Shown here piece by piece: positions 543 to 21,657 of a stretch of 21,657 nt of DNA; within the stretch, counting starts at the first letter, position 1, and the number at the start of each line of letters is the position of its first letter. This DNA is from a virus. The stretch spans positions 1 to 21,657 of the IMG/VR virus record IMGVR_UViG_3300025319_000423. The stretch is one strand, 5' to 3'. Position numbers and translations under genes: made by a program. Under the pieces are notes generated by a model. That model saw nothing but the letters and a program-made list of their open reading frames with translations. It did no database searches and had not been told where the DNA came from.

Positions 543-866
543 GTGGACGAGTTGTTTCTTTTCCAGGACGAGGGGGGCGAAGAACTGACCCTCTTGGATT
601 TCTCTATCCAGGAGATCATCGCCATCCTTGGAGGGAGACGGAAAGCGCCGCAGGCCTTTGCGCCACATGTTGTGGAACGGAAACGGACCACGGAGCAGGA
701 AGAGCAACTGCGCCTGCTGAGACTGCTAAACCAGGCGAATGATGCCAAGAGCCTCAAGAAGTGGCAGGAGGCGGAAAACGAGGCGGCCAGGAAGAAGCAT
801 AGCCAACTTGTGGTTGGACGACTTCGCCGGGAGGCGGACATAAAGAAGCTTCGGGGAAAGAGATAG
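543..866 (+). CDS. Small charged, predicted alpha-helical protein of unknown function
   Basis: 107 residues, starting with GTG immediately after the TGA of the upstream gene and in the same frame. No other Met occurs in the protein and no clear Shine-Dalgarno precedes the start, so expression probably depends on reinitiation by ribosomes that have just terminated. The N-terminal half is acidic and hydrophobic (MDELFLFQDEGGEELTLLDF). Residues ~48-107 are rich in E, K, R, Q and L with a heptad-like pattern, suggesting a coiled coil with a very basic end (RREADIKKLRGKR). I do not recognise a family. The position after a repeat-bearing virion protein suggests a structural or chaperone role, but that is only a guess. 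It ends in TAG, overlapping the next gene by one base (TAGTG). Confidence 0.55.
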   Translation: MDELFLFQDEGGEELTLLDFSIQEIIAILGGRRKAPQAFAPHVVERKRTTEQEEQLRLLRLLNQANDAKSLKKWQEAENEAARKKHSQLVVGRLRREADIKKLRGKR

Positions 867-1444
867 TGTGGGCCGGCAAGCTGGGAGATGACTACACCCG
901 CAGGAACATGACAGGAGACCAGACCGCCTTCTTTGCGCCGATTGTGACCCTGACGGGACCACTGGAGTCGGCGATCGAGTTTGGCCCGAATGTTGGATTG
1001 AATCTGTCTGCACTTAGACGGATATTCCCGCAGATTGAGGTTGCCGGCGTAGAGGTAAATCAAGGGGCTTGTGCGGAACTGCAAAAGAGGATCCCGGACG
1101 CCGTGGTTTACCAGTGCCCGGCAGATAGATTTGAAACCGAGAGAACCTATGACCTTGCGCTTACCAAGTCCTTCCTCATCCACATTCCCCCGCAGGAACT
1201 GGATGCGGTTACTGCTAGGCTCTACCAGTGTGTTCGACGGTGGCTACTCCTGGCGGAATACTATAACCCGAGACTCGTGGAGGCTCATTACCGCAATACT
1301 GTCTTGTGGAAGCGGGACTTTGCAGGAGAGATGCTGGACAGATACCCAGACCTACAACTCGTGGCCCACGGGTTCAGTTACCACCTAGATGAATTCCCCC
1401 AGGATGACATCACTTGGTTTCTGCTAAAACGTGCGCCATCGTAG
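866..1444 (+). CDS. SAM-dependent methyltransferase of the pseudaminic-acid-biosynthesis-associated methylase family
   Basis: 192 residues, GTG start preceded by a GGGGAAAGAG ribosome binding site. The N-terminus MWAGKLGDDYTRRN matches the W-G-xFG-xxY-xRN opening of this family, which supports the start. SAM-binding motif I is AIEFGPNVGLNL (residues 36-47), followed by the acidic strand end GVEVN (61-65). DLALTKSFLIHIPP (96-109) corresponds to the post-motif strand. EYYNP (131-135) and LWKRDFAGEMLDRYP (147-161) are characteristic of the family (TIGR03587-type), and the C-terminal DDITWFLLKR matches its usual ending. In bacteria such genes sit in pseudaminic acid clusters and are thought to methylate the sugar or an intermediate. 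Here it would tailor a nonulosonic acid handled by the NeuB- and NeuA-like proteins farther along. The exact substrate is unknown. Confidence 0.8.
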   Translation: MWAGKLGDDYTRRNMTGDQTAFFAPIVTLTGPLESAIEFGPNVGLNLSALRRIFPQIEVAGVEVNQGACAELQKRIPDAVVYQCPADRFETERTYDLALTKSFLIHIPPQELDAVTARLYQCVRRWLLLAEYYNPRLVEAHYRNTVLWKRDFAGEMLDRYPDLQLVAHGFSYHLDEFPQDDITWFLLKRAPS

Positions 1445-2025
1445 GGAATGGGCCGAGCGTCACTCCGGGGTTGCTGGAGGCTATCGGGTGCCCATCATTT
1501 GGCCTGAACGCCGTGGCTTCGATTTACCCCCAGACAACTTGGCGGCCGACGCACTACCTGTTGGGTTGGTCCCAGGGGGACGGGGGGCTTTCCGCTCTCC
1601 CGCTAATTCTTGAGTCGGTGGCACTGGGAATACCGAGTTACATCCCGCATCACTGGGGAGAGAGGGTCATGGGGCCAAACGTTTTTCTCTACGGGATGCA
1701 CAAGGGACCCGAGTGGGCGACGCACACAACTTCCCTTTTCGGGGGGCATACCTCCGTCTACCTGGCCGCCCAGATGGCTACTGTGTTGGGCTTCAGCCAC
1801 GTCCTGTTCATGGGGTTGGACGGACTGAAACCGAGACATGGAAGGGACCCCAACCATATGACAGATAACTACTACGAGTTCGACGAGGACTTATCCGCTA
1901 AAGATGCGGCCATAGCGAATGCGGGCATGTTTGCCGGCTACATCCAGATGGTTGGGCTGATGAAGGACCGCGGCGTAACGTGTGATTTCGTTGTGCCGCC
2001 AAATAGAATAGGTCTTGAGTTTTGA
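1414..2025 (+). CDS. MptE-like / Maf / GT42-sialyltransferase-like Rossmann-fold protein (putative glycosyltransferase)
   Basis: 203 residues, TTG start overlapping the methylase by 31 bp; AGGA lies 9 nt upstream and no ATG or GTG is available before the first conserved motif. The N-terminus has CAIVGNGPSV (residues 7-16), the nucleotide-binding signature shared by DUF115/MptE-like proteins, Maf flagellin glycosyltransferases and GT42 sialyltransferases. It continues with GLNA (30-33) and TWRPTHYL (42-49, a typical 'states where the entity is' strand). SVYLAAQMATVLGFSHVLFM (114-133) is then followed by GLDG and DPNHMTDNYY (145-154), again as in MptE-like proteins. Maf proteins transfer pseudaminic or legionaminic acid, and this gene directly follows a pseudaminic-type methylase, so a nonulosonic-acid transferase role is attractive but inferred. 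Many phage MptE-like proteins have no proven activity. It ends in TTTGA, overlapping the terminase start (TTGA). Confidence 0.6.
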   Translation: MVSAKTCAIVGNGPSVTPGLLEAIGCPSFGLNAVASIYPQTTWRPTHYLLGWSQGDGGLSALPLILESVALGIPSYIPHHWGERVMGPNVFLYGMHKGPEWATHTTSLFGGHTSVYLAAQMATVLGFSHVLFMGLDGLKPRHGRDPNHMTDNYYEFDEDLSAKDAAIANAGMFAGYIQMVGLMKDRGVTCDFVVPPNRIGLEF

Positions 2026-3551
2026 CCGACGAGCAGAACGTTCCGCTAACCGAACTGGCCCTTATGGTGACCCTGGCGAGAATAGATTCTCCCGAGGGAT
2101 ACGAGGCGTTCTATACGCTCATCCAGGGATTTCCCCCTCCCCTCCATGCCCGCAAGTGGATCAAGGACATCTTCCAGGCGAAGACGGACGGTAGGGGATT
2201 GGTCATCGAGGCGTTCCGGGGGTCTACCAAGACCACTACCCTTACGGTCATTTTCGTGGCGCACCAGATTGGTCTTCACCCGGAGAAGTCAAACTTGATT
2301 GTTGGCCTGAACGACGCCGCCGCCAAGAAGCGGGGGGCGTCTAAAATAGCCGACATCATCGAATACAACAAGGCGTGGAAACTCATCTTCCCCCACATCA
2401 TCAAAGACGAGAAGCGGGGGTGGGGAGATAACGGCTACTGGGTTCAAGATACCAGCATCCCCTACGATGAGTGGAGCCGCAAACTTGGCCTGGACTACAC
2501 TCTCTCTGGCTGGGGCTATACCTCCGGCGCCCTAGTTGGAATGCACCCCACGGGGACATTGGTGATTGATGACATCCACGGCGACGAGAACACCTCTTCC
2601 CCCAGACAGTTGGAAGAGGTCATGGACATCATCAAGGGCACCCTTATGCCTACCCTGGTTCCCGGTGCGTTCCACATTGTGGTGGGAACTCCCTGGGTGG
2701 AGGGGGACGCCATCTCCTATTTCAAAGCACTGCCGACGATGTTTCACCACATCCGCACGCCCCTATTGAGCGGGGAGAAGTCGGTCTGGCCCGAGGTGTT
2801 CACCGAAGAGGAAGTTACCAACCGGAAGGCCGCCAGCGGGGCCGTTGAATTCGCCCGCATGTACATGCTGGATTTGGAAGCGGCCAAGGGCCACAACCTC
2901 AAGAAGGAGTGGCTGGGATACTTCAACTACGAGGACATCAAAGAGGACTGGCCCGTCTTCATGGGCAATGACTATGCCTCTACCTCGGACAGAATGAAGC
3001 AAAAGAAACGGGACGACAACGCCATCTGCTGGGGCAGACTGACCCCTCGGGGAGACCTGGTTTTGATTGACGGCGACGCCGAGCAGATGTCCCAGGCTGA
3101 AGCGTATCAAAGGATTATTGCAAGAGCCTCTTCTTTCCCGACGCTGCAACAGATCGGCATTGAGAGCATTGGGAAGGGGGAGGAGTTCTACGAACTGTTG
3201 GCACAGGCGCCGATCTTCATGCCCATCGTTCCCATTCCCTCGCACACGGGACTGGCGAGGTCGAAGGGCGGCAGGTTCGAGAAGGTGTTGGCCCCCATGT
3301 TCCAGAGAAGGCGTGTTCTGATTTCCACGAGGCAGACGCCGTTTCTGAAGAAGTTCGTGGACCAGTGGATTTCGTGGGACGGTTCGGGGAATTCCGGGGA
3401 CGACACCCTGGATGCAGTTTACATGATGACCAAGGCGGCGGAGGGCTTCATTGCCCTGCCCGCATTGCAGGTCTCGGCGGAGAGCCCGCTGTATTTCGAG
3501 AAGAAGAAGATGGTCAATCCATGGGCCATCTTGGGGAGAGGCAATGGCTGA
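2022..3551 (+). CDS. terL: Terminase large subunit (DNA-packaging ATPase/nuclease)
   Basis: 509 residues, TTG start in a 4-bp TTGA overlap with the upstream gene. The protein pumps phage DNA into the prohead through the portal and cuts the concatemer. The ATPase half has the Walker A variant FRGSTKTT (residues 65-72), Walker B LVIDD (180-184) and the coupling motif VVGTPW (220-225). The RNase H-like nuclease half starts near FMGNDYA (D317) and contains DLVLID (D350) and IGIES (E381). The late acidic motif is GDDTLDA (D460, D461, D464). Length and domain order are normal for the family. The last 8 bp overlap the portal gene, the usual terminase-portal arrangement. No small terminase subunit is recognisable in the window; it may lie upstream. 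Confidence 0.93.
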   Translation: MTDEQNVPLTELALMVTLARIDSPEGYEAFYTLIQGFPPPLHARKWIKDIFQAKTDGRGLVIEAFRGSTKTTTLTVIFVAHQIGLHPEKSNLIVGLNDAAAKKRGASKIADIIEYNKAWKLIFPHIIKDEKRGWGDNGYWVQDTSIPYDEWSRKLGLDYTLSGWGYTSGALVGMHPTGTLVIDDIHGDENTSSPRQLEEVMDIIKGTLMPTLVPGAFHIVVGTPWVEGDAISYFKALPTMFHHIRTPLLSGEKSVWPEVFTEEEVTNRKAASGAVEFARMYMLDLEAAKGHNLKKEWLGYFNYEDIKEDWPVFMGNDYASTSDRMKQKKRDDNAICWGRLTPRGDLVLIDGDAEQMSQAEAYQRIIARASSFPTLQQIGIESIGKGEEFYELLAQAPIFMPIVPIPSHTGLARSKGGRFEKVLAPMFQRRRVLISTRQTPFLKKFVDQWISWDGSGNSGDDTLDAVYMMTKAAEGFIALPALQVSAESPLYFEKKKMVNPWAILGRGNG

Positions 3552-5433
3552 TCTGAAGAAAGACATTATGCGCAAGGCCAGGCAGATGGTCGATGCGGAT
3601 AAGACCCTCCACAGATATCAGGAGGAGTACGAGCGCATGGCACGCCTGGATTGGACGCCCCCTGGCGCGTTAGGGCAGTTTGCGTTCATTCGGGGAAGAC
3701 CCTCCACGGCACCTTACGATGCTCTTCGGGGGGCAGTCAGGGCGATGGCGAACCTCCAACCAAGGATAACCGTCCATCCGGCGACGGTTCTGAAGGCCCT
3801 GAAGGGGGGAGACGACAAGAGCCTTGAGGCGAGGAAGCTGGCCAACCAGTGGGAGACGACCTTCCGCTGGGTGCTGGACAGACTGATAAAGCGGTCGCCC
3901 ACGTTCCTGTCTGACATTGTCTGGTCTTCCGTGTTGTACCATGAGGTGAATGGGCAACCCATTCACCTCCCTACGCAGAAGAGAATTGCCGATACCCTCC
4001 GGGGGACAAAGGGCGAGGCGGCTATGCGGATGGGCGACTGGGGGGTGAAACTGGCAGATCCCAAGACGGTGGATGTGAGGTATTCCAACTACGGCACCGA
4101 TGCGGTTCTTTCGGTTGCACTGAGGGATGCCAGGTGGGTCTCGGAGTTCTGGGGCCATGAAGCCATTGCGGCGCAGATTGAGAAGAACCCCGACTTTGCC
4201 ACAGAGCCTTTCCTGGAGTGCGACTACGTCGATTACGAGAACCGCTTTGTGTGGGCTGTTCAGAGCAATTCGGTTAGCGAGATTGAGGACCTGAAGTACA
4301 CCCTTCTTGAGCCGCAACCCTGGCTGGGGAGGGAGGTTCCCTTCCTGCCGTGGATCAACGTCGCGGGGGGCACCAAGGTTGACTTAGCTCCAGAGCACCA
4401 GAGACGACCGCTGCTCTACCCTGTATTGCAGACGGGCCTATGGATCAATGCCAACGTCATGGGCACCATCATGCAGTCGGTGGCAATTGCAGAAGCGGCG
4501 GCCGCCAGGAACATTGTGAAGGGCGCAGGCGCAGCGGATGTCGAGGTTGACTACGGAGAAATTGGCGGACGTATCAACCTTACGCCTTTCCAGACCTACG
4601 AGAGAATACAGCAACTAAGTCTGGACCCGCAGATCCGAGAGATGTTCGACCGCACCGACGAGGCTATCAGGCGGGCCACGGTGTCGGATGTTCTGGTAAC
4701 TGGGCAGCCGATGGGAACCGACCAGACGTTCGCCGGCTTCAACCTCCAGGTTATACAAGCTCTTGCTTCTCTGGGGGATTTCAAGAACGTCGCCCAATTG
4801 TTTATTGCCCGATTACTGGAGCACATGCTTCTTCTGGCGCACTACACCGGCGGAGAAATCTCCGGATACGGCAAAGACGACAAGGTCTACACCATTGATA
4901 GCGAGGACATCGACCCCGAGGGAATCTACATCGACGTAGAGTTGACCACTGACTCTCCGGTGGACCGCCAGCAAAGAGTGAACTCGGCCATGAACCTGGC
5001 CAATTCGGAGAATCTACCCATGTCCCCGCGGTCTCTGTTGGAGTTCCTTGGAGTGACAGACCCCGAGGGCGAAATTAGGGACTGGATGAAGCACCGTGTC
5101 AGAATGGCCGACCTGATGGGCAAGCTGAAGAAGATCGAACTGACGGTCTCCGGAGAAATCGAGCAGATGGCCGCCCAGATGGCGCAGCAGATGGTTCAGG
5201 ACCAGATGAAACAACAGCAGGCTCCGGAGGGTGGCGGTATGATGCCCGGTATGATGGGCACCGGAAGCCCTCCCGAGAACATGATGGCTCCTCCTGGGAT
5301 GCCCGGAGTTGAGGGGCAGGGGGTAAATCCGGCCGCCGGAGGAATGCCCCCCGCTATGGCTAACCCGATGGGGAATACGTTCGAGGGTCAGACGGGAATG
5401 AGCAGGGGCGGTCAAGAACTGGCGGGGCCCTAA
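3544..5433 (+). CDS. Portal protein
   Basis: 629 residues. I chose ATG 3544 because GGGGAG (3533-3538) lies 5 nt upstream and MADLKKDIMRK is a normal portal N-terminus; an ATG 93 bp upstream would add a Cys/Arg-rich stretch that is a shadow of the terminase frame. Its place right after the terminase, its size, the helical N-terminal region (YQEEYERMARLDW), the aromatic central part and the stem-like helices (EMFDRTDEAIRRATVSDVLVTGQ) fit the phage portal family, the dodecameric ring at the DNA-entry vertex. From about residue 535 the C-terminus becomes low-complexity: repeated QMA/QQM, then a Met-Pro-Gly-rich tail that is probably disordered and inside the head. The call rests on context and general features rather than a single catalytic motif. 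Confidence 0.85.
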   Translation: MADLKKDIMRKARQMVDADKTLHRYQEEYERMARLDWTPPGALGQFAFIRGRPSTAPYDALRGAVRAMANLQPRITVHPATVLKALKGGDDKSLEARKLANQWETTFRWVLDRLIKRSPTFLSDIVWSSVLYHEVNGQPIHLPTQKRIADTLRGTKGEAAMRMGDWGVKLADPKTVDVRYSNYGTDAVLSVALRDARWVSEFWGHEAIAAQIEKNPDFATEPFLECDYVDYENRFVWAVQSNSVSEIEDLKYTLLEPQPWLGREVPFLPWINVAGGTKVDLAPEHQRRPLLYPVLQTGLWINANVMGTIMQSVAIAEAAAARNIVKGAGAADVEVDYGEIGGRINLTPFQTYERIQQLSLDPQIREMFDRTDEAIRRATVSDVLVTGQPMGTDQTFAGFNLQVIQALASLGDFKNVAQLFIARLLEHMLLLAHYTGGEISGYGKDDKVYTIDSEDIDPEGIYIDVELTTDSPVDRQQRVNSAMNLANSENLPMSPRSLLEFLGVTDPEGEIRDWMKHRVRMADLMGKLKKIELTVSGEIEQMAAQMAQQMVQDQMKQQQAPEGGGMMPGMMGTGSPPENMMAPPGMPGVEGQGVNPAAGGMPPAMANPMGNTFEGQTGMSRGGQELAGP

Positions 5434-5711: not shown

Positions 5712-6369
5712 GGCCGCAGAAAGTGCCGCCATTGGGCAGGCCGTTGCCGGTGCCATCAATACGGTTGCCGGGGCCATAACTACTGGTCCCGGCGGACAAG
5801 TCGGACGGGGAAGTATTGGCGTTGGCGACTGGCGAAATCTTGCGGTAAACATCCCCTCGGCAATTCCAACCAGAACGGTTGGTCCCGCGGGGCGTGCGGG
5901 GTTGCCGGCGGGTGCGGGATTTACTACGGGTATGGCCGCGCAGGGGGAGACACAGCGCCTCCTCACTGCCCGCTATGGAGCGCCCACGGGGCAACAGGCG
6001 GAGACGCAGCGCATTCTGGCGGGACGTTATGGGGCATCTCGCACCGCCGCAATGCAGGCGGCACAGCAGGATCGGGAGCAGGCCTATGTCCTGATGGCTC
6101 GTTATGGAATGGCCCCCCCAGAATTGATACCGGGAACTTCTTCTTACCAGGAGCGGCAGCGTACTCTCACTGCCCGTTACAGCGCGCAAGCCCCCACCAT
6201 TGCCACGATGGGCGGACAAGCCAAGAGAAAACTTAGGCCAACTATTGATACTGGCGGATATGGCCAGGGGGATGACGGCGGAAGCTATGGTGGTGGCGGA
6301 GGTGGCGGGGGTGGATACGCCGGATACGGCGGCGGTAATGGGCTAATCAACTGGAGAATTGGATACTGA
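5551..6369 (+). CDS. Pro-rich / RYG-repeat / Gly-rich putative virion protein
   Basis: 272 residues if ATG 5551 is used (AGAGG at 5536-5540, 10 nt upstream). No ATG or GTG occurs in frame between 5701 and 5932, so the gene very likely begins inside its neighbour. Domains: Pro-rich segment (residues ~13-53, including LPPIKPPPVPVV); Ala/Gly-rich possible membrane-active stretch (57-80); four repeats of a Q(R/A)xL(T/A)ARYGA type unit at about 133-144, 151-162, 175-187 and 201-212; a basic patch (KRKLRP); then a Gly/Tyr-rich tail (235-263) ending in NWRIGY. Such composition is common in small phage virion proteins of unknown role. It ends TGATG, overlapping the giant gene by one base. No function can be assigned. 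Confidence 0.55.
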   Translation: MAKLTGGTTSRKPGRTPPVVDPRRPLPPIKPPPVPVVTPRGTFTPGVQPWVNPRAAESAAIGQAVAGAINTVAGAITTGPGGQVGRGSIGVGDWRNLAVNIPSAIPTRTVGPAGRAGLPAGAGFTTGMAAQGETQRLLTARYGAPTGQQAETQRILAGRYGASRTAAMQAAQQDREQAYVLMARYGMAPPELIPGTSSYQERQRTLTARYSAQAPTIATMGGQAKRKLRPTIDTGGYGQGDDGGSYGGGGGGGGGYAGYGGGNGLINWRIGY

Positions 6370-9300
6370 TGGCCACCCCACAAGTACCGCGGGTAATCAA
6401 AACGGATAAGCCCACCGCGCGGGCCACGCAACCATCCACGCAGTACCCGTGGCAACAACCCGGATTTACCCCGCGGCCGCCTACCCGGCAGCAAGTCCCT
6501 AACTACGAACGCCTGACCGCAACCGAGCGGTGGGTGATGAACCGCCTACCCGGCATTGCCGAGAGCGGCGTTGGGCGTGCGCTGGAGTGGTTCGGCAACA
6601 CATGGGCCGGCAGGGCACTGCAATATCTAGACATTGGGGCCGAGGGAGTTGAGCGGGGCATCGGCTTTGTTGCACAGGCCCTTGATGCAAATGCTCACGG
6701 GCAAGAAGCCTGGGACGATTTCCAGGCAAATGCCCGAGAGGCGTGGTACGCAGGATCTCTTGCGGCTGACTTTGTTGGAAGCCCCACTGGAGACATGGTC
6801 CCCTATACCGTTGCCGGCGGAGGTGTTGGAGCCGTCGGCGGAGCGGTTCTGGGAAGTCTCGGTGGGCCCATTGGGACGTTCGCGGGCGGTCTTCTTGGAG
6901 CGGGCGCTGGGACGGGCATTGGCCTCGCCTTTCAGATGGGGGAAAATGGTCATGAGAGCGTGGCCTCCCTCGTTGAGTCTCGACGACAAATTGCCGATCT
7001 TGTTCGGCAAGGCATGGACCCTGGCGATGCCTTAGTCCAAGTAAGAGACCAGATGTACGAGTCGCAGGGGGCATTGGCGCTTCGCTCCCAGATGAATGAC
7101 CTATGGGTTCATCTCTTTGCTGACCCCATAAACATTGTGGCCGAGTTTATCAAACCAATCGAGGCCCTTGAGGTCCGCAGGATATTGGCCCTCAGGAGGG
7201 CGATGCCAGATGAGGTAGTGGAGTCTATTCGTGTTACCGAGACTCTTCTCGACGAGGCCAGGGGGGCATTACGTGTGGCACAGGGGGGTGCGGCCGAGGT
7301 TGCCGGGGCGGCCCCAAGAGTCGCCGGCGAGGTTCTCGAAGAAGTCGCGGGAGCGGCCCCAAGAGTTGCGGCAACCGCCGAGGAGATTGCAGCAAAGGCG
7401 GAGACGGTTGCCGGGCTTGAGAACTCGCTACGGCTTCTCCGCGAGGCCACGCAGATGTCTCCCTGGCAGCAAGCCGTACTTCGTATTGCCGGGAATATGG
7501 ACTGGCCGACAGATAGTGCGGTCGGGAGATTTCTGAACTCCCGAGCGGGAAGGTTGATAACTGGGCCATTCCGACTCACGCGGGAGTCTCGGGCCTACGC
7601 CTTTGTTGATACGATTGAGACTAACCTGAGGGCCTATCTTCCCCGAGACTTTCAAGAGGCCATGCGGGACGTTCTTCGCGCCCGAGACGGCATTTACAGC
7701 CCCCAGATAGCACATATGGTTGTAACAGCAGAGGGCAGGTATGTTCGTGGGATGATGAGCGGACTAGGGGCAGTGGCCGAGCGCCTGCTACAGGCGAGGG
7801 TGGCGGCAATGCCGGATCGCCGCATCCTTGAGTTTATGTCTGTGGTCCTTGGAGAGGACGTCTACCGTGTTCTTGCCCAGGCGGGGAGCGAGGCCCCCGC
7901 CCTGTTCCGACGGTTCAACGAGGCATTGGCCCAGGTGCCAGATGGTCAAAGGATATTGGCACAGACGCTCCGCATTGGAAATCGTCAGATTGGAGATTTC
8001 ACCGCCGATCTCCTCAAGGGAATACACGGCACCCTGGAGGGAACGGGCACCATCACCGACGATCTACTCAGGACCGGTTTCCTGAACGCGGCGGCGGATA
8101 TTGCCGCCCAGGCGGGTATTGCCAAGTTTGGAGTTCGGGCCAGGGGCACTCTTCTAGCTGCGGCCGATGCCATCAAGGCGGCGGAATCTCTGGCCCTGCT
8201 CCGGGCCGGGAATGTTGTTTATCCTCTAAGGAACTGGGTCAACAATGTTGTAACGATGATTGCCCGAGGCACTTACGTCGGGGGCAGCAGAGAGGCGATT
8301 GCCGACGTAGAGAGAATACTGGGAGGGATGCCCACCAGAATGCGTTCGGGGTATGGCATGGCGGGACTGGCCGGAAATGAGGGCCTGAGTGCCGCCGAGT
8401 CCATTATCGCCCGAGCGTCCAGGGGAGAACGGGGGTTCTGGAACCAGGCGAGGGACTGGATTTCTGGCATTCACTTCCCCGGAGACACGGGGGCATGGGC
8501 CAGAAGGATTGAGGTTAGTGCTTCTCAGAGAGCCTACGCCTCCGGCTTCCACCGCTTCTTCCGCCAAGGCAGGCGTGCCTTGTTACAGAACCTTGAGGAT
8601 TTCGCCCCCGATGTGGCTAACAGCATCAGGGCCAGATATGGCGATGAGGCACTTCGGGCCGCGAACAATGCCATACGCGGGGCGGGCACGGACGATGACA
8701 TCTTGCGCGCCCTGGCCTCTACTGACAATATGCATCTGAACCTAGAGAACATCCTAGACTCCGCCAGCGAGAGGATGGGCGTAGACCTTCCTAACATCCT
8801 GGACGAGACGTTTACGGCACGGTGGGGTCCGGAGATTGAAAGGGCTGCGCGGGCTGGCCCCAATCAGATTGAAGAGGTCTTTGAAAGAATGTGGGGCGAG
8901 GTACAAGACGAACTAGACAATCGCCTAGATGATAGCCTCCGGACGCTAACCGAGGAGGCAACGGAACGGATTGTTGCCGAGGGACCGGGGTCTTTCCCTG
9001 GTGTCTTTGGCGATGCGATAGACGAGTTCCATGGTAGCTATGTCCAGGGCCACGCGATGACAATGGCTCGCATTGGTGATCTGACTGATCTAAGACCAGA
9101 AGTTGCCAACAGAATGATGGGCGCCGTTCTGGACCGAGAGCAGAGGTTCATGAACAGGGGCTGGAGTCGCCTAGAGGCCAGAATGCAAGGCGTGGCAAAC
9201 GCCCTGGGGCGGAGGGAGATAAGGGGCGGCGCTGAGGTAATGACTGCCTTCCGGCAGTGGCGGGATGGCTGGCGGCAATTCTTCGAGTGGCGCAATACAA

Positions 9301-13190: not shown

Positions 13191-13213
13191 AGTTGGCATG
13201 GAGGACAAACAGG

Positions 13214-13939: not shown

Positions 13940-14196
13940 TGCCGCTCGATTGGATGCACCTACAAATCGAGGAAAAGGCGCAAGCCATCCTCGATGATAT
14001 TGAGGGCCTGGAAGACGCCGAGGTTCAGTCACTCCTGGAGGAGTGGCGTGAGCTGGAGGGCTCAGACGACTCTAGGTTGTCTGATGTTACGCGGCTTGCC
14101 CTTGATTTCCTTGCACGCAAGAACGGTGCCCCAACGAGCCGAGAGCGGGCTAGAGCCAGCCTTCAGCGCCGAGGGGTAATAGAATGGCCTCCTTGA
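13939..14196 (+). CDS. Small acidic protein between scaffold and capsid genes, unknown function
   Basis: 85 residues, GTG start in a TAGTG overlap with the scaffold stop and GAGG at 13930-13933, 5 nt upstream. An internal ATG at 13954 would give an 80-residue product. The N-terminal two thirds is acidic and helical (DDIEGLEDAEVQSLLEEWRE), and the C-terminus is basic (SRERARASLQRRG). The last 13 bp overlap the capsid gene. I recognise no family. Position suggests a small head-assembly factor, or an adaptor to scaffold or capsid, but this is inference only. Confidence 0.55.
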   Translation: MPLDWMHLQIEEKAQAILDDIEGLEDAEVQSLLEEWRELEGSDDSRLSDVTRLALDFLARKNGAPTSRERARASLQRRGVIEWPP

Positions 14197-15431
14197 TCCA
14201 AACGGTTTCCTCGACTGCGGTGGGCGGGCAAAACCTTCCCAATTCAGTCAGGACCCAGTACATCGAAAACTACATCGAAGCTGCCGAGATGGCGCGCATC
14301 TACGACCAGATCGCTGCGCCTATTGGCAAAGACATGAGCAACCTTGCTCGTGGTTCCTCGGTGCAGGTTGATGCCCTTTCGGACATGCAGCCCGGCACCT
14401 CGGCAATCTCCGAAGTCTCGGACATTGCCATGCAGGCACTCAGGGACGCGACCCTGAGCATCACCCCCACCAGCCGTGGCGAGGGCATTCAGTGCTCCGA
14501 GCTGCTTCTGAACCAGGCGTACACCGACTACGGTGCTGCGCGGTTCGGGATCGTCGGCAAGGGGTTGATGGAAAGCCTTGAGGTTCTGGCCCGCGACGTT
14601 GCGTGCCAGGGAAGCCTCGTCATCCGACAGGGCGTTGCTGCCCGCACCTCACTTCTGGCTTCCGCAACGGGCCACCGGGCGACCGATGGTCTATTCAGCG
14701 ATGCCTCAACGATGCTGGAAACCCTCAAGTGCCCAGGCTTCAAGGGCATGGGCGGGGGCCGGCGCTGGGTTGCCATCATGCACCCGGCAGCCTTCCACGA
14801 CATCCGCGAGGACGGGAACGTCCAGAACGTCGGCATCTACCAGGACAAGGGCATCATCCTCAACTACGAGTTGGGGAGCATCGGCCCGTTCGCTCTCGTG
14901 AGTTCAGCCTGGGCGAAGGTCTTTGGTGGAGCCGGGGCCGTTTTGACCGATCCTGCTTCAGCGGTGTTCTACACGCTGACCTCCTCGGTCAATGCTCTGG
15001 ACAAGACGCTCGTCCTGTCCACGGTAACGCACCTGGACACACCCACCAACAAGTGGTTCACCATCGGCACGCGAGAGACCGGAGATACGCACTACCCGAT
15101 GAATGAGCGGGTGCGCTTCGTGTCTCATGCAACTGGAACGGTGACCTTTGTTGGCGAGGCCTCCAACGGCGGGTTGCGCTTTGACCATGCCGCGGCCTCC
15201 TGGGTTGGCAACTCCTCGGATGTGTTCCCCATCGTCTTCGGTGGACCGATGTCGCTGGCCAAGGTTTATGAGCCTTCGGTTGGCGAGTACGGCACCATCG
15301 TTGGCCCGAAGCGAGACGGCGCACTCGATCAGTGGGTCACGCTCGGCTTCAAGTGGTACGGGAACTACGGCCGGATGAGTGAAAGCTGGCTCATGCGGGC
15401 CGAGGTTGCTTCGAGCGCAAGCGTCGCGTAA
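14184..15431 (+). CDS. Major capsid protein, N4-gp56/HK97-like
   Basis: 415 residues, ATG with GAGGGG at 14171-14176, 7 nt upstream. The order of segments follows the N4-gp56 family: N-terminal helix (RTQYIENYIEAAEMARIYDQ), the E-loop-like region with VQVDALSDMQPGTSAISE, the spine helix (YGAARFGIVGKGLMESLEVL), the conserved P-domain strand RRWVAIMHPAAFHDIR (the 'HP' motif, ~191-206) and the ELGSIGPFALVSS strand (~230-242). Between GGAGAV (~248) and FPIVFGGP (~347) lies an extra ~95-residue beta-rich insertion. The C-terminus (DQWVTLGFKWYGNYGRM...) returns to the core fold. Hundreds of copies would form the shell. Base use is slightly cleaner and more C/G-ending than in the giant gene, as expected for a highly expressed protein. 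Confidence 0.87.
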   Translation: MASLIQTVSSTAVGGQNLPNSVRTQYIENYIEAAEMARIYDQIAAPIGKDMSNLARGSSVQVDALSDMQPGTSAISEVSDIAMQALRDATLSITPTSRGEGIQCSELLLNQAYTDYGAARFGIVGKGLMESLEVLARDVACQGSLVIRQGVAARTSLLASATGHRATDGLFSDASTMLETLKCPGFKGMGGGRRWVAIMHPAAFHDIREDGNVQNVGIYQDKGIILNYELGSIGPFALVSSAWAKVFGGAGAVLTDPASAVFYTLTSSVNALDKTLVLSTVTHLDTPTNKWFTIGTRETGDTHYPMNERVRFVSHATGTVTFVGEASNGGLRFDHAAASWVGNSSDVFPIVFGGPMSLAKVYEPSVGEYGTIVGPKRDGALDQWVTLGFKWYGNYGRMSESWLMRAEVASSASVA

Positions 15432-15967: not shown

Positions 15968-15984
15968 CAACTGAATAGCCTGAA

Positions 15985-16013: not shown

Positions 16014-16022
16014 GGAGGGATA

Positions 16023-17114
16023 ATGCGAGTTTTTGTCGGCGGAGTATCATCCGAATACGCACACGGGGGTTGCGTCGAATCGTTCTTTACCATCAGATTG
16101 AGGCCCGGAGACGAGCGCAAGTACCAGTGGCGCACGCGCGGAGACATCGCCCGTACCGAACTCTGTGATGAGTTCGTGCATCGCAAGGAGTTCGACGCCT
16201 TCTTCCTGGTGGACGTGGACATGCTGTTTGACCACGACATCCTGGAGAGGCTGCGGTCACACGACCTAGATATTGTCAGCGGGCACTACTTCCGCAGGCG
16301 CTTCAACCCAATGATTTCGATTGCCGAGGTTGGGGAGTGGCCCTATGAGCCACTGTACGACATCCCCGATGACGGGCTGATTGAGGTCTCGACCAGCGGC
16401 TTCGGCTGTCTGCTTATCAAGAGGAATGTTCTAGAAGCAGTACAGAAGACGATGGACCCCAAGGAGCCAATCCTGGGGATGGGACCCCTGCCCGAGATGA
16501 CCAACGGTGATCGCGGCCCATTCGGAGCAGACTTCGTGTTCTCCGCAAGGGCCAGACAGTCGGGTTACAAGCACTGGGTAGACTGCAATCCCGTGGCGGA
16601 GGCCAGGCACGCAGCGACCGTGTTCTTGGATAGGAAACTGTACAAGAAGGTCCGTGGGTGGCAAGTAGAGAAAGCCGCCGACCACTGGAAGAAAATCTGG
16701 CAACTCAATCTGGAGGTTCATGGAATGGACGCAAAGACCGCCGACGCACGAGTGAAGCAACTTCAGCTAATCCGCAAAGGCTTTGCCGATAGCCTGCGGG
16801 ATTTTGAGGATCAGGCGGCGAACCTGCGCACCCGCATTGCCATTGTGGATGGGCAGATTGCCGAACGAGAAATTGACATACAGACAGCGCCACCGGAACC
16901 AAAGACGCTGACGATAGAAGACTCTCCGAAGCCGCTACTCCTGGGCAAGTTGCCCGTGTTCAATTCAGAGGAAGAGGCGAGGGCCGCTCTGGCAAACAGG
17001 GGCAAGGGACCAGAGGGGGAGAGCGAAGAAGAGGGTCAACGTCTTCGGGAACCGGTAGCCAAGAAACTCGCACAGGATTTCTTGGGGGCGCTAAAAGATG
17101 GCTCGGCCTCTTGA
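16023..17114 (+). CDS. GT-A-fold glycosyltransferase (GT2-like) with C-terminal coiled-coil extension
   Basis: 363 residues, ATG with GGAGGG 3-4 nt upstream. The N-terminal ~210 residues look like a GT-A nucleotide-sugar transferase. RGDIARTELCDE (40-51) is typical of phage GTs that scan for the acceptor. AFFLVDVDML (59-68) carries the metal-binding DxD (D64-x-D66). SGFGCLLIKR (125-134) and the GADFVFSARARQSGY segment (168-182) correspond to the acceptor/catalytic region (GEDxxF in relatives), and H196 could ligate the metal. From about residue 205 the protein becomes charged: a coiled coil (LRDFEDQAANLRTRIAIVDGQIAEREI, ~258-285, split here across repeats), then an acidic, Glu-rich tail. The extension is unusual for such enzymes and suggests anchoring to a partner. 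It probably glycosylates a virion or host-surface target; donor unknown. Confidence 0.7.
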   Translation: MRVFVGGVSSEYAHGGCVESFFTIRLRPGDERKYQWRTRGDIARTELCDEFVHRKEFDAFFLVDVDMLFDHDILERLRSHDLDIVSGHYFRRRFNPMISIAEVGEWPYEPLYDIPDDGLIEVSTSGFGCLLIKRNVLEAVQKTMDPKEPILGMGPLPEMTNGDRGPFGADFVFSARARQSGYKHWVDCNPVAEARHAATVFLDRKLYKKVRGWQVEKAADHWKKIWQLNLEVHGMDAKTADARVKQLQLIRKGFADSLRDFEDQAANLRTRIAIVDGQIAEREIDIQTAPPEPKTLTIEDSPKPLLLGKLPVFNSEEEARAALANRGKGPEGESEEEGQRLREPVAKKLAQDFLGALKDGSAS

Positions 17115-17661
17115 GGTTGTCAGGCATTGTTGCCTGGCAGGGACGAACCTTGAGCGCGCCGACCTGAGGTACATGGACCTCAGGGGAGTGAACTTTACCA
17201 ATTCAAACCTGCGTGGGGCAGACCTGTCCCACGCTGACTGTCGGGGAACAATCTTCGTGAAGGCGGACCTCTCGCGGGCGTGCCTCTACAACACGAACTG
17301 CGAGGATGCAGACTTCAGCAACGCCGACCTCACTATGTCCTACTTGCGGGCAACCAACTTCATCCATGCCACGATGTGGTGGGCGTCTCTTAGGAGGGTT
17401 ACGGCCAAGAATGCCTTCTTCCTTGGGGCAGACATGACCGGAGTAGACATGGCTTATGGCTTCTTCCTGGGGGCAAGATTTGGGCCTCCCCTTTGCAAGA
17501 CCGACCAGATGCGGAATGTTGATAAGGCGGTCTTTCACTGGTACTGGGATCCACAGGGGGGCATCCCGTCCTACGATCCCAAAGAGGGATACGTTGATCT
17601 CTGGCACAGCGTCCTAGGGGGCATCTCTCTCCAAGAGAATGCATCTACGAGGCCCAAATGA
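17098..17661 (+). CDS. Pentapeptide-repeat protein A
   Basis: 187 residues, ATG overlapping the glycosyltransferase by 17 bp. Residues ~13-127 are tandem pentapeptides of the A(D/N)Lxx type (NLERADLRYMDLRGVNF..., ADLSHADCRG), which form a right-handed square beta helix. The last 45 residues are non-repetitive: DKAVFHWYW followed by PSYDP, a WHS segment and QENA. This C-terminal cap is shared with the second pentapeptide protein at 18092-18712. The repeat contains several Cys and bulky aromatic residues, making it less regular than its paralogue. Some pentapeptide proteins mimic DNA and bind gyrase; others have unknown roles, and nothing here settles which. It ends ATGA with the following gene. 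Confidence 0.85.
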   Translation: MARPLEVVRHCCLAGTNLERADLRYMDLRGVNFTNSNLRGADLSHADCRGTIFVKADLSRACLYNTNCEDADFSNADLTMSYLRATNFIHATMWWASLRRVTAKNAFFLGADMTGVDMAYGFFLGARFGPPLCKTDQMRNVDKAVFHWYWDPQGGIPSYDPKEGYVDLWHSVLGGISLQENASTRPK

Positions 17662-18095
17662 GACACCGCGCCTTTGAGTTACGATTGCAGGAACTGGAAA
17701 TGCAGCTGGAGTTCCTGGTCAAACAGATCAATGAGGCACGGACCTCCGGGGCGGAGAAAACCGCCATTGCCGAGCTGATGCTGAAGTACACCGATGTCGA
17801 GGCCCGGATGGACGAGATACGTCTGTGGGAAAAGGCGGAGGAAGAGAACCCGCGGTATGGAACCCAGGTCAGGGTCAACGGGATGTGGCGCCCGAAGTTG
17901 CCGGAGTTTGGATCTCTGGAGAAAGCCCTAGAAGCCATGAACTCCCCAACCGGGGGAGGACACTCGGCGGCGGCCGTGAAAGCGGCAAGAGAGTTTCGGT
18001 CCAGCGAGGACGCCAGGGAAACCGTCAGGTCCTTAGACGGTAGAAGCCCGCTCGTTCCCGAGGAAGAACGGAAGCCGTTCAACACGACGCTATGA
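17658..18095 (+). CDS. Coiled-coil protein between the two pentapeptide-repeat genes, unknown function
   Basis: 145 residues, ATG in an ATGA overlap, with GAGG at 17649-17652, 5 nt upstream. Residues ~5-65 are strongly helical with heptad spacing (FELRLQELEMQLEFLVKQIN and a second helix ending in MDEIRLWEKAEEEN). A middle segment contains RYGTQVRVNGMWRPKLPEFG. The C-terminal third is Ser/Gly/charged and probably flexible. I recognise no family. Being locked in ATGA couplings between two paralogous pentapeptide proteins suggests it works with them, perhaps as an oligomerising partner; this is inference. Confidence 0.6.
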   Translation: MRHRAFELRLQELEMQLEFLVKQINEARTSGAEKTAIAELMLKYTDVEARMDEIRLWEKAEEENPRYGTQVRVNGMWRPKLPEFGSLEKALEAMNSPTGGGHSAAAVKAAREFRSSEDARETVRSLDGRSPLVPEEERKPFNTTL

Positions 18096-18712
18096 CCAGT
18101 GTAGATAAGCGCCTGGAGTTGGCTTACAAGAGTTCCCTCGTCGGGGCGAACCTGGAGAGAGCTGATTTGCGTGGGTTGGATTTGCGAGGCATCAATCTGA
18201 CCAGCGCCAACCTCCGGGGGGCCGATTTGTCGCAGGCGAACTTATCGCAGGCGACGCTGATTAGGACAGATTTGTCCAGGGCCAACATCCAGCGGGCGAA
18301 CTTCACCGACGCCGACATGACGGGCTGCGACCTTACGGGCTGTTACGGCAGAGGGGCGAAGTTCTACAGGACCAAATTGTGCCTGGCCTATCTGAGATAC
18401 GCCCAGTTCAAGAACGCATTCTTCATCGAGTGCGACATGACTGGGGCGGATCTGCTGAATAGCCTCTTCCTGGGAGCGAAGTTTGATGGCTCCAACACAG
18501 AGGGCGTGAAGAATGCCGACAGGGCCATCTTCCTGTGGTGGTGGTCGCCGTTGAAGACGGGGAAGATCAGCTACGATCCGCTGCCGGGATGGATACAACT
18601 GGACGAGAGCGTTACTGGAGTCGAGAGCGTTCGAGAGAACGCCGCCCGAGAGCGTGTTGAAGACTCCGTACAGAAGGCGTGGGAGGTTATGGACGATGCC
18701 TCGAAAGCGTAA
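18092..18712 (+). CDS. Pentapeptide-repeat protein B (paralogue of the protein at 17098-17661)
   Basis: 206 residues, ATG in an ATGA overlap; no good Shine-Dalgarno precedes it, so it depends on coupling to the gene before. Residues ~16-133 are a very regular run of A(D/N)LxG/Q-type pentapeptides (NLERADLRGLDLRGINL, ADLSQANLSQATL), forming a quadrilateral beta helix. The C-terminal part repeats the cap of protein A: ADRAIFLWWW, then SYDP, a DESVTG segment and RENA. An extra charged helix (ARERVEDSVQKAWEVMDDASKA) is added at the end. Both proteins also share the block NAFF-x3-DMTG-x-D followed by FLGA(K/R)F. A tandem duplication followed by divergence is the simplest origin. Function unknown. 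Confidence 0.87.
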   Translation: MTSVDKRLELAYKSSLVGANLERADLRGLDLRGINLTSANLRGADLSQANLSQATLIRTDLSRANIQRANFTDADMTGCDLTGCYGRGAKFYRTKLCLAYLRYAQFKNAFFIECDMTGADLLNSLFLGAKFDGSNTEGVKNADRAIFLWWWSPLKTGKISYDPLPGWIQLDESVTGVESVRENAARERVEDSVQKAWEVMDDASKA

Positions 18713-19025
18713 GGATCAGCCCGTTCCGTTGGAAGAGTTGCGGTTCTCGGGGGATGCCAACCTCATCCTTGCCAGGCTCAAGGCAGAGTTGGCCGAGAGG
18801 GATAGGTATATCAACGTCCTGGAGAACGAGAACCTGGGCCTGGAGAAGTGTGCCAACAGGGTTTGGACTGCCCTGGAGGAGGCGGAGGCAATGGCAAACC
18901 GCTTCCCGCAGTTTGTTCAGGATGCCCTGAATGACCCGAAAAAGCACGCCTCCAGACTGGCCGAGGCGGCTCGCTACGGCAGGATCTTCCGGGAAGCCAA
19001 GGACGACTTCCAGAGGCTCAGATGA
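18696..19025 (+). CDS. Small charged coiled-coil protein, unknown function
   Basis: 109 residues. ATG 18696 was chosen because GGGAGG (18681-18686) lies 9 nt upstream; a longer GTG start at 18654 would add only an Arg-rich stretch overlapping the pentapeptide gene. It overlaps the upstream gene by 17 bp. After a basic start (MPRKRKDQP) comes a long helix (residues ~20-60, NLILARLKAELAERDRYINV, then ENENLGLEKCANRV) with leucine spacing typical of a coiled coil, and an Arg/Lys-rich end (YGRIFREAKDDFQRLR). No family recognised. It ends in ATGA with the cytidylyltransferase gene. Confidence 0.55.
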   Translation: MPRKRKDQPVPLEELRFSGDANLILARLKAELAERDRYINVLENENLGLEKCANRVWTALEEAEAMANRFPQFVQDALNDPKKHASRLAEAARYGRIFREAKDDFQRLR

Positions 19026-19735
19026 ACCGCCAGCAGAGGGTCCTCGGGGTCACGGCCGCCAGGGGAGGAAGCAAGGGCGTTCCCCGGAAGAATATCCGCC
19101 AGATCAATGGCATTCCCCTGATTGCCTACACCATCCGAGAAGCCAAGAAGAGCCATCTCATCAGTAGATACATTGTGTCTACAGATGATGACGAGATAGC
19201 TGAGGTTTCCCGCCACTACGGGGCCGGGGTTCTGATGCGGCCGTCGGAACTGGCCGAAGACCATACCCCAATGATTGCCGTGATGCAGCACGCCCTGAAG
19301 CGGTGCGAGGAGGAAGAGGGGGAGTGGTATGACATCGTGGCCGACCTAAGATGCACCAATCCTCTCAAGACGGCCTATGACATCGACGGGGCAATAGAGA
19401 AACTGATCCACACTGGGGCAGACGGGGTTATCGGGGTGACAAAGCTGGACGATCACCACCCGGCACGGATCAAGCGGGTCTTCGAGGATAGATTGATTGA
19501 CTTTGCCTGGCCCGAGCCGCCGGCGGGATTGCGACAGGAACTCAAACCAGATGCCTTCATCCGCAACGGCAGCTTGTATGTGGTGCTCAGGGATGCACTT
19601 CTAGACGGCATTCTTCTTCAGGGTAGCGATAATCTTAGGCCTTGGTACATGCCGCTGGAGAAGAGCGTGAACATCGACTCCGAGTTGGATTTTGTTCTGG
19701 TGGAGGCGCTCCTTGGACGCAACCGCAAGATTTGA
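19022..19735 (+). CDS. CMP-nonulosonate (acylneuraminate) cytidylyltransferase
   Basis: 237 residues, ATG in an ATGA overlap with AGAGG at 19012-19016. The enzyme activates a nine-carbon 2-keto sugar acid (sialic, legionaminic or pseudaminic acid) with CTP to CMP-sugar and pyrophosphate. The CTP-binding signature ARGGSKGVPRKNI (residues 13-25) is complete. STDD (53-56) and LRCTNPLKTAYDID (109-122, the LxPTSPLR-like segment) follow. NGSLYV (182-187) and VNIDSELDF (216-224, with metal-binding acidic residues D219 and D223) complete the family pattern. Length matches NeuA, PseF and LegF single-domain enzymes. The NeuB-like gene two positions downstream strengthens the call. KdsB is less likely, as its signature differs. 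Which nonulosonic acid is used cannot be decided. Confidence 0.88.
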   Translation: MNRQQRVLGVTAARGGSKGVPRKNIRQINGIPLIAYTIREAKKSHLISRYIVSTDDDEIAEVSRHYGAGVLMRPSELAEDHTPMIAVMQHALKRCEEEEGEWYDIVADLRCTNPLKTAYDIDGAIEKLIHTGADGVIGVTKLDDHHPARIKRVFEDRLIDFAWPEPPAGLRQELKPDAFIRNGSLYVVLRDALLDGILLQGSDNLRPWYMPLEKSVNIDSELDFVLVEALLGRNRKI

Positions 19736-20432
19736 AGTCGGGGGTAAGGAGTTCAACTTTACGGCCCCCACGCCCCTCCAGTTCAGGACACTGCACAAGA
19801 TAGTGGATGCCTACTATTCAACCGATTATGTCAGGCAGCGTCTAGGAAACATTCGGCATATCGTTGATGTGGGCGCCTGCATAGGAACAATGTCTCTTGT
19901 TTACGAGGCTATATGGCCAGGGGTGGAAATACTTGCCATAGAACCACACCCAGACAACTTCAGGTATCTCGTGGAGAACTGTAGGGCGTTCAAGAACATT
20001 CACCCCGTGAACATTGCCGTCAGCGACAAAGAGGAGAGAATACGCCTCGCCTTCCCAACCCCGGAACAGCGGCCGGACATAAAACGCCTTTATCTATTCG
20101 CCAACGTAGGAATGGTTTCTCGCTACGGACTCTCAGACGCATTTGTGGCGGAGGTGGACGCCGTACCGCTAGACAGTATTGTTGGATGGAATGTAGATTT
20201 CCTGAAAGTCGACGTAGAGGGGTCAGAAATGCAGGTCTTGCGCGGGGCCGAAGGGGTGCTCTCTGGAAATCCCCTCGTGACGGTGGAGTTGCGCCCCGAC
20301 AATCTGGCCATGGCGGGCCTGACCTGCGAAGACGTTGACGAACATCTACAGGGCATGGGATATGAGGCGGTGGCAAAGTTTATGGGAGACCCGTTGTATC
20401 AACGCCGGAACTGGCGGCCATGGTTTTCATAG
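19713..20432 (+). CDS. FkbM-family SAM-dependent methyltransferase
   Basis: 239 residues. I chose TTG 19713 because GGAGG at 19702-19706 lies 6 nt upstream; another TTG at 19692 has no such site. The start lies inside the cytidylyltransferase gene (23-bp overlap). SAM motif I is VDVGACIGTMSL (residues 51-62). AIEPHPDNFRYLVENC (75-90) is motif II with the ribose-binding acidic residue, and FLKVDVEGSEMQVLRGAE (163-180) is the hallmark FkbM segment. FkbM enzymes O-methylate sugars or polyketides and are frequent in surface-polysaccharide clusters. Here it probably methylates the sugar or glycan made by the surrounding genes. It ends 13 bp into the NeuB-like gene. Confidence 0.85.
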   Translation: MDATARFEVGGKEFNFTAPTPLQFRTLHKIVDAYYSTDYVRQRLGNIRHIVDVGACIGTMSLVYEAIWPGVEILAIEPHPDNFRYLVENCRAFKNIHPVNIAVSDKEERIRLAFPTPEQRPDIKRLYLFANVGMVSRYGLSDAFVAEVDAVPLDSIVGWNVDFLKVDVEGSEMQVLRGAEGVLSGNPLVTVELRPDNLAMAGLTCEDVDEHLQGMGYEAVAKFMGDPLYQRRNWRPWFS

Positions 20433-21082
20433 CCGAACTCGGCAGTATGCATAAAGGCATTGAGGCGCTGGCCTATGAGATGGTGCGCAGGGCAAAGATG
20501 TCTGGCGCAGATGCCGTGAAGTTCCAGTTCGGCTGGGGTCCCGATGCGGGGGACGCCCGCAGGTGGGCCGAGGCGAACGCCAAACTGATACGTGGCTGGT
20601 GTGACTACTTTGACATCCAGTTCGGGGCGTCGGTGTTCTCCTGGGGCGGGTTGGCCACGGCGGAATCTTGCGGCGTAGACTACCTGAAGATGGCGCATCC
20701 GGAGACATTTGCCAGGAATGCGCCTTTTGAGAACTACGAGAAGATATTGCATCTGTGTCTGCAAAGCGGCAAGCCGCTGTACGTTTCCGGGAGCAGTGCC
20801 CCTGGGGCGGTCTCTCTTTATTGTGTTCCGAAGTATCCCGTTTACCAGGAGGAACTACAACTGCCGATGCGCTTCTCTAGCCTGTGGTGGGGCGGCTACT
20901 CATCGCACACTCATGGAATTGAGGATGCGCTGGTGGCCATTGGCAGGGGAGCGACGGTTATCGAGAAGCACGTAACCCTGGACAAGACCGAGGAGAGCAT
21001 CAAAGACAACCAGTTCGCGCTCTCATTTGAGGAGTTTGCCGAGATGGTCCATATCGGAAGGGCTATGTCGAGGCTGACATAA
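20420..21082 (+). CDS. NeuB-family nonulosonic acid synthase-like protein, unusually short
   Basis: 220 residues against the usual ~330-350. NeuB-type enzymes condense phosphoenolpyruvate with an N-acylated six-carbon sugar to give a nonulosonic acid. Conserved landmarks, in order: IAELGSMHKG (residues 4-13, variant of AEIGxNHxG), AKMSGADAVKFQF (25-37), YLKMAHPE (88-95), the PEP-side segment YCVPKYP (134-140), SSHTHG (161-166, normally SDHT) and GATVIEKHVTLD (177-188). H163 and H184 match the metal-binding pair, with E182 kept. The C-terminal SAF (antifreeze-like) domain is absent, and about 35 residues after VKFQ and a short helix before YCVPKYP are missing. The gene ends naturally at TAA, overlapping the next ATG, so this is a real short form, not a window effect. 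It could have altered specificity or activity. Confidence 0.78.
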   Translation: MVFIAELGSMHKGIEALAYEMVRRAKMSGADAVKFQFGWGPDAGDARRWAEANAKLIRGWCDYFDIQFGASVFSWGGLATAESCGVDYLKMAHPETFARNAPFENYEKILHLCLQSGKPLYVSGSSAPGAVSLYCVPKYPVYQEELQLPMRFSSLWWGGYSSHTHGIEDALVAIGRGATVIEKHVTLDKTEESIKDNQFALSFEEFAEMVHIGRAMSRLT

Positions 21083-21657
21083 TGTTGGCACACTGGAGCG
21101 CCCCCTACAGACCTCACTGGAAGATGTGGTCCTGGCCGTGCGAGACCTCGTTCTGGGAGGTCTATGAGGCGAAAGACCTGGAGGGGCTGCCGCCGATTGG
21201 CATTCTCTACGCCAACCCGAATGCGCACTACGTCCTGGACATGGCCGCCCTGGAGATGCTGCCCGACCTCAAGATGGTTGTGACGCCGTCTACGGGGAAC
21301 ACGCACATTGATATGCTGGCCCTTAGGGAGGCGGGTATTGAACTGCGGTCTCTGCTGGATGACCGTCCCGCCCTGGAGGAAATCAGGGCCAGCTCGGAGT
21401 TCACGTTCCTGCTCATTCTGAACGCCCTGCGACGCCTGGATAAGATGCTACTGTCGGGGGAGTGGAGGCGGGACGAGGAAAGCCTGCGGGGGCACGAGCT
21501 ATACGAGGCGATGATCGGGCTGGTGGGTCATGGGAGGATCGGCAAGAACGTCGAGAGATGGTGCCGAGAGTTCGGGGCGGGGGTGTACTGGTACGATCCC
21601 TACGACGACGCCAGGGATAACATCTACCAGTGCAGCATACCGTGGCAGTTCTCAAAC
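21082..21657 (+). CDS. D-isomer-specific 2-hydroxyacid dehydrogenase-like protein (3' partial)
   Basis: The frame opens at ATG 21082 (TAATG overlap with the NeuB-like gene, GAGG at 21070-21073) and runs 192 codons to the window end without a stop. The N-terminal substrate-binding half has LKMVVTPSTGNTHID (63-77), the usual 'TGxxHID' strand, and SSEFTFLLILNALRRLDK (104-121), matching the family's AEHTxxLxLxxxR helix. The NAD-binding motif is IGLVGHGRIGKNV (145-157), GxGxxG-like, followed by VYWYDPY (168-174). The catalytic Arg, Glu and His lie outside or near the cut end and cannot be checked. Relatives include phosphoglycerate dehydrogenase and other 2-keto/2-hydroxy acid oxidoreductases. In this operon it may act on a sugar-derived 2-keto or 2-hydroxy acid, which is speculative. 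Confidence 0.8.
   Translation, partial: MLAHWSAPYRPHWKMWSWPCETSFWEVYEAKDLEGLPPIGILYANPNAHYVLDMAALEMLPDLKMVVTPSTGNTHIDMLALREAGIELRSLLDDRPALEEIRASSEFTFLLILNALRRLDKMLLSGEWRRDEESLRGHELYEAMIGLVGHGRIGKNVERWCREFGAGVYWYDPYDDARDNIYQCSIPWQFSN

Follow-up and report, generated by a model that had tools for sequence, protein, structure and literature searches.

Why should a phage carry genes for a sialic-acid-like sugar on both sides of its head genes, and what would it do with the product? The question is raised by an IMG/VR virus contig of 21,657 bases (IMGVR_UViG_3300025319_000423, analysed at full length and referred to here as the window), which is a contig of a podovirus-like phage with all its substantial genes on the + strand. 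An earlier note had described in it a module for making, activating, methylating and possibly transferring a nine-carbon sugar acid, split around the terminase, portal and capsid genes. The answer that we regard as probable is a host-fed cassette for a cytidine monophosphate (CMP)-activated, sialic-acid-like (2-keto-3-deoxy, 'nonulosonic'-type) sugar, expressed with the late genes and glycosylating the virion or the cell surface. The sugar genes and the genes lying among them are listed below.

866..1444, + strand: Pse_Me-ase, a class I S-adenosylmethionine (SAM) methyltransferase ('pseudaminic acid biosynthesis-associated methylase'; TIGR03587, 190.7 bits, cut-off 112.05)
1414..2025, + strand: doubtful MptE/DUF115-like open reading frame (ORF) of 203 amino acids, candidate glycosyltransferase, with GNGPS and LFMGLDG stretches and a 4-base overlap with the terminase gene
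16023..17114, + strand: GT-A-like glycosyltransferase with a DVD motif (weak PHROGs matches: phrog_1574, E 1e-8; phrog_12406, glycosyltransferase, E 0.002)
17098..17661, + strand: pentapeptide-repeat protein 1
18092..18712, + strand: pentapeptide-repeat protein 2 (by sequence)
19022..19735, + strand: PseF/NeuA-like CMP-sugar-acid cytidylyltransferase (PF02348, 81.7 bits, cut-off 22.6; PDB 6ifd, 1eyr)
19692..20432, + strand: FkbM-family methyltransferase (start TTG 19692 or TTG 19713; PF05050, 62.7 bits; TIGR01444, 80 bits)
20420..21082, + strand: barrel-only NeuB-family synthase of 220 amino acids, without SAF domain (PF03102, 74 bits, cut-off 22.1)
21082..21657, + strand: D-2-hydroxyacid dehydrogenase (PGDH-like; PF02826, 43.8 bits), cut by the window end

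All genes named in the earlier note were recovered as intact + strand ORFs. Its inventory was incomplete, in that the span also holds the whole head module, the dehydrogenase had been overlooked, and the NeuB-like protein consists of the barrel only.

The compact NeuB and its partner enzymes

The window NeuB has 220 amino acids, compared with about 340 in the usual enzyme; its ORF ends with a barrel helix, and the barrel loops are shortened. An AlphaFold2 model, built with an alignment of 28 phage NeuB sequences, reached a predicted local distance difference test score (pLDDT) of 94.9 and a predicted template modelling score (pTM) of 0.92. The top 12 Foldseek matches of this model were all NeuB, PseI or SpsE chains, to which VIA-align gave Z scores of 22.9–26.6, the best alignment covering 211 residues at 2.1 Å. 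DAHP and KDO8P synthases followed after a gap, with Z scores of 19.4 or less. In a profile alignment to NeuB of N. meningitidis, the residues that we take to be key in the structure of that enzyme were all kept in the window protein, namely E25 (E6 in the window NeuB), K53 (K34), Q55 (Q36), K129 (K90), E134 (E95), S154 (S123), Y186 (Y139), S213 (S161), H215 (H163), H236 (H184) and D247 (D196). These include the metal-binding histidine pair (H163, H184) and the lysine pair that binds phosphoenolpyruvate (PEP; K34, K90). By its predicted fold and catalytic core, the protein is a NeuB-family enzyme, as had been proposed. It cannot be filed as a sialic or a pseudaminic acid synthase, because both equivalog cut-offs were missed by far (NeuB_NnaB, 75.5 against 399.65; PseI, 69.4 against 340.25).

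Family membership also held for the NeuA-like protein, whose ATG overlaps the preceding stop by 4 bases: it belongs to CTP_transf_3, carries an RGGSKGVPRKN nucleotide-binding motif and has PseF as its best NCBIfam model, with a score (121.2 bits) under the PseF equivalog cut-off of 205.7. The two methyltransferases likewise stood. In the case of Pse_Me-ase, which has a GTG start and overlaps the preceding gene by 1 base, the assignment draws on a score above the TIGR03587 cut-off and on the presence of NeuA and NeuB in the same phage. The MptE/Maf-like transferase, on the other hand, could not be upheld. Its ORF scored 18.6 bits over 37 residues against PF01973, below the cut-off of 34.6; its AlphaFold model reached a pLDDT of 43.5, and Foldseek matches of so poor a model carry no meaning. 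For a relationship to phage MptE-like proteins, hhalign gave a probability of 3.5%, and the PDB matches of its profile were repeat-protein artefacts.

The GT-A-like gene is the first of the insert behind the capsid genes. It had no match in PDB or Pfam, and a search with GT42 (PF06002) gave no match, as did the control. Two pentapeptide-repeat genes (17098-18712) lie with small ORFs inside the same insert, under strong purifying selection.

The 2-hydroxyacid dehydrogenase likely completes the cassette, since a dehydrogenase–NeuA–NeuB run recurs elsewhere: in an unrelated contig of 131.8 kb (G041; L062:8836-11100), a 2-hydroxyacid dehydrogenase, NeuA and a SAF-less NeuB overlap in that order, the dehydrogenases of both contigs sharing 34% identity.

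Head genes, relatives and exchange within the cassette

The sugar genes flank the head module on both sides, before the terminase gene and after the capsid genes, and neighbouring sugar and head genes share 1 to 44 bases with each other, in agreement with the same-strand coupling that had been claimed for them. The head genes are the following, all but the scaffold-like ORF being assigned to the phage backbone.

2022..3551, + strand: terminase large subunit (phrog_38, E 4.6e-51; 30% identity to MW202725)
3544..5433, + strand: portal protein (phrog_156; 35% identity to MW202725, syntenic)
6369..13178, + strand: 2269-amino-acid protein, homologue of the MW202725 giant ORF (both ends 28-42% identical)
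13193-13939, + strand: scaffold-like ORF of the head module
14184..15431, + strand: N4 gp56-like major capsid protein (48% identity to MW202725)

MW202725 (Manatee Spring) is a complete circular podophage in which the order of the terminase, portal, giant protein, scaffold, capsid, adaptor and tail genes is conserved, with identities of 28-48%; none of the window sugar genes has a counterpart there. The Pse_Me-ase and MptE-like pair, and the run from the GT-A-like gene to the dehydrogenase, are therefore two additions to a shared, older backbone. The 2269-amino-acid protein, for which no PHROGs family match was obtained, would by its position be an internal or ejection protein; the copy in the relative G002, introduced below, has 2025 amino acids, and both ends match the 2156-amino-acid ORF of MW202725.

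The NeuB search gave two more contigs with the cassette, G001 (24.9 kb) and G002 (34.5 kb), both from other samples. They are 99.9% identical to each other over 23.8 kb, and each matches the window at 83-92% identity in long blocks with the same gene order; a fourth fragment contains the NeuA start, at 92% identity. In G002, the dehydrogenase gene is complete (309 amino acids; PF02826, 123.4 bits; GxGxxG and R/E/H residues kept) and is followed by tail genes. Right after the 99.9% identical segment, G002 encodes a CBM96/disaggregatase-repeat protein (29375-29974; L006) and G001 a glycine-rich protein (23845-24639; L008), a difference that looks like an exchange of a tail-end protein. Precursor genes (dehydratase, aminotransferase, epimerase) were recognised neither in the window nor in G002, both of which are incomplete genomes; to this extent the earlier statement that no precursor enzymes are in view was borne out. 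DNA searches of INPHARED with the whole window and searches of INPHARED with the compact NeuB gave no match, and pattern scans of genome_contigs with NeuB and Pse_Me-ase revealed no relatives, the patterns being short and of little weight for the question of the host.

Selection was estimated from two sequences, the window and G002, by the Nei-Gojobori method as the ratio of non-synonymous to synonymous substitution (dN/dS), with the synonymous value for NeuB near saturation. All sugar genes gave dN/dS values of 0.04-0.21, indicative of purifying selection: 0.04 for the dehydrogenase (93% identical), 0.06 for Pse_Me-ase (97% identical) and for the NeuA-like gene, and 0.11 for the GT-A-like gene; each pentapeptide-repeat gene gave 0.06. 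Because the same ordered genes occur in two further contigs and are under purifying selection, the arrangement is far beyond chance. That the genes are recent, decaying passengers or that the contig is a host–phage chimera is a very improbable explanation and already largely refuted: the syntenic MW202725 without the cassette would fit it, but the NeuB catalytic residues are intact, dN/dS is low throughout, and identical junctions occur in independent contigs of other samples.

Identity between the window and G002 is not uniform along the cassette. It is about 90% through NeuA, falls to 50-78% at 19721-20920 (FkbM and the initial two thirds of NeuB) and then returns to about 83%, the FkbM gene as a whole being only 60% identical. 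This profile indicates that FkbM and the 5' end of NeuB have been exchanged between relatives. Between these two genes, G002 has one extra glycosyltransferase-like gene. Just after FkbM, G001 and G002 contain 42 bases that agree with the beginning of the window NeuB in 36 positions (against 30 for the true NeuB start of G002 and 23 for the next best place); the extra transferase comes next, and then a different NeuB start. On the simplest reading, the transferase would have come in as one block with a new 5' part of NeuB, leaving the 42 bases as a scar.

Virion, cell surface or a different acid

In the pathway that we propose, the compact NeuB would condense PEP with a host-supplied aldose, and the PseF-like enzyme, judged by its family, would convert the product to its CMP form. 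FkbM, Pse_Me-ase and the hydroxyacid dehydrogenase would modify either the sugar itself or an (acyl) substituent on it, and the GT-A-like protein, together with the further transferase in the relatives, would build or attach the glycan. Expression would probably be late, since the sugar genes overlap the terminase gene and continue the capsid operon. As they are thus woven into the morphogenesis operon, we lean slightly towards the virion rather than the host surface as the target of glycosylation, a preference that derives from gene arrangement.

The same enzymes may instead act on the host surface, adding the sugar to lipopolysaccharide (LPS) or capsule during infection and so blocking adsorption of other phages or binding of progeny to debris; we give this a sizeable chance, short of even. 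The sharp-bordered gene exchange within the cassette and the gain or loss of a glycosyltransferase fit variation of a surface glycan, and superinfection exclusion has been proposed as the role of the sugar clusters of jumbo cyanophages (PMC7824862). However, coupling to the terminase gene and continuity with the capsid genes suggest expression at a stage that is late for superinfection exclusion, and no flippase or polymerase gene was seen.

It is rather doubtful, by contrast, that the product is something other than a nine-carbon acid, with the barrel-only NeuB turning another aldose (e.g., a pentose or an unmodified hexose) into a Kdo-like or Kdn-like acid and with the dehydrogenase belonging to a different small pathway. 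Such a shift would accord with the loss of the SAF domain and the substrate loops, with the tree, where the NeuB proteins of the window and G002 are isolated on a very long branch, and with the next-best folds, those of KDO8P and DAHP synthases, which likewise lack SAF. Nevertheless, NeuB-type folds clearly outscore KDO8P synthases, the NeuA-like protein fits PseF (121 bits) far better than the KdsB models (46 bits or less), and Pse_Me-ase is present.

Several points weigh against a host-fed cassette for a sialic-acid-like sugar. In the window NeuB, the residues N184 and D214 (N. meningitidis numbering) are replaced. Arg314, a substrate contact located in the SAF domain of N. meningitidis NeuB, has no counterpart in the window protein, which lacks that domain. 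Both NeuA and NeuB fall under every NCBIfam equivalog cut-off. Late expression is judged probable from gene order only; scans of the window for sigma-70 promoters and terminators gave chance level. Supply from a host pool is an assumption, made because no precursor genes were seen.

A bolder proposal, unlikely in its full form, is that the barrel-only NeuB, with a substrate use of its own, acts with the dehydrogenase and the two methyltransferases to coat the virion with an O-methylated ulosonic acid specific to the phage, which might carry a hydroxyacyl group such as glyceroyl. Sialylation-like glycosylation of virions would then be common among environmental phages, and exchange of cassettes would make it vary.

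Cassettes in other phages and comparison with known systems

A motif scan of IMG/VR, in which contigs were picked by their NeuB motif alone, gave 40 loci on 39 contigs, and NeuA was also present on 35 of these contigs. Many are fragments, and a terminase was found in about one quarter by the one family tested. Among the complete NeuB ORFs (n = 35), 13 were shorter than 275 amino acids, eight of them forming one close clade, and a further one was a 527-amino-acid NeuA–NeuB fusion without SAF on a viral contig (L042:593-2176). The tree requires at least two changes on well-supported branches to account for the SAF-less trait. One bacterial barrel-only NeuB was found, in a polysaccharide island of an Azospirillum plasmid, and an apparent phage match, FPLJ01000048, proved to be a Moritella capsule locus.

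Gene content around NeuA and NeuB differed widely. A contig of 167.6 kb with large-phage genes (G034) carries PseB-, PseC- and MptE-like genes, NeuA, NeuB, an acetyltransferase-like gene and Pse_Me-ase inside 9 kb; Pse_Me-ase adjoins such genes there and in G006 (loci L017 and L070). In L025, L038, L060 and L061, PseB-, PseC-, NeuC-, WbuX-, HisH/HisF-, NeuA- and NeuB-like genes adjoin terminase, portal or capsid genes, with NeuC (253 bits) and WbuX (326 bits) both over their cut-offs when the profiles were run on L038 and L025. In G025, whose head genes are unrelated, a glycan island with NeuA and a barrel-only NeuB lies between the capsid gene and an SU10-like adaptor gene, which is the site of the window insert. 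Two loci (L013:7094-12116 and L016:6414-12560) hold genes resembling a sugar ABC transporter (a binding protein and two permeases, recognised by reading rather than with a profile), and behind these lie NeuA and an MptE-like gene; in L013 this run lies upstream of the terminase gene. No NeuB was seen in either, and these sets possibly serve to import, activate and transfer a sugar.

Because similar cassettes sit in many unrelated phages, it may be common for phages to decorate their particles, or the cell they infect, with such sugars. If this is true, many environmental phages have their own means of making or activating sialic-acid-like sugars, along a range from near-complete pathways (L025, L038, L061 type) to host-fed cassettes like that of the window and, perhaps, sets for import and activation (L013, L016), and a sialylation-like change of the virion or the late cell surface would be a common phage trait. 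A minimal NeuB of 220 amino acids would become available to enzymology, and it would be testable whether phage sugars serve as armour, receptor masks or exclusion.

Like the window, the near-complete nonulosonate-type islands (L025, L038, L060, L061, L070) have NeuA and NeuB, the latter barrel-only and adjoining the terminase gene in the first four; they differ in that part of them contain PseB-, PseC-, NeuC-, WbuX- or HisH/HisF-like genes, none of which is present in the window. With the NeuB/PseI/LegI synthases (PF03102; PDB 1xuu, 8h2c, 6ncs), the window NeuB has in common the TIM barrel (Z 23-27), the metal histidine pair, the PEP lysine pair and the sugar-site Glu and Asp, and it departs from them in length, in the absence of the C-terminal SAF (antifreeze-like) domain, in its shorter loops, in the replaced D214 and N184, and in its long branch. 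The NeuA-like protein shares the RGGSKGVPRKN motif and a whole-length match with PseF/NeuA synthetases (TIGR03584, PF02348), and carries Asn where N. meningitidis NeuA has Asp209. A Stenotrophomonas phage gene with a reported NeuB_NnaB domain (PMC6469090) belongs to a lysis cassette, has a transmembrane domain and is unlike the window NeuB.

In the open-access literature, with most subscription papers and preprints outside our scope, no paper on phage nonulosonate cassettes was found. The LPS/capsule clusters of jumbo cyanophages (PMC7824862) are likewise phage-borne glycan genes that vary between close relatives; as described, they consist of nucleoside diphosphate (NDP)-sugar epimerases, kinases and transferases, and the words sialic, neuraminic and pseudaminic are absent from the description. 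In 2013, neuA- and neuB-like genes were listed in viral metagenomes (PMC3877843), in a KEGG list that covers neither their genome context nor their domain anatomy nor any link with head genes. The occurrence of neuA and neuB in viromes is thus already known, and what is new in the window is their barrel-only, mosaic form.

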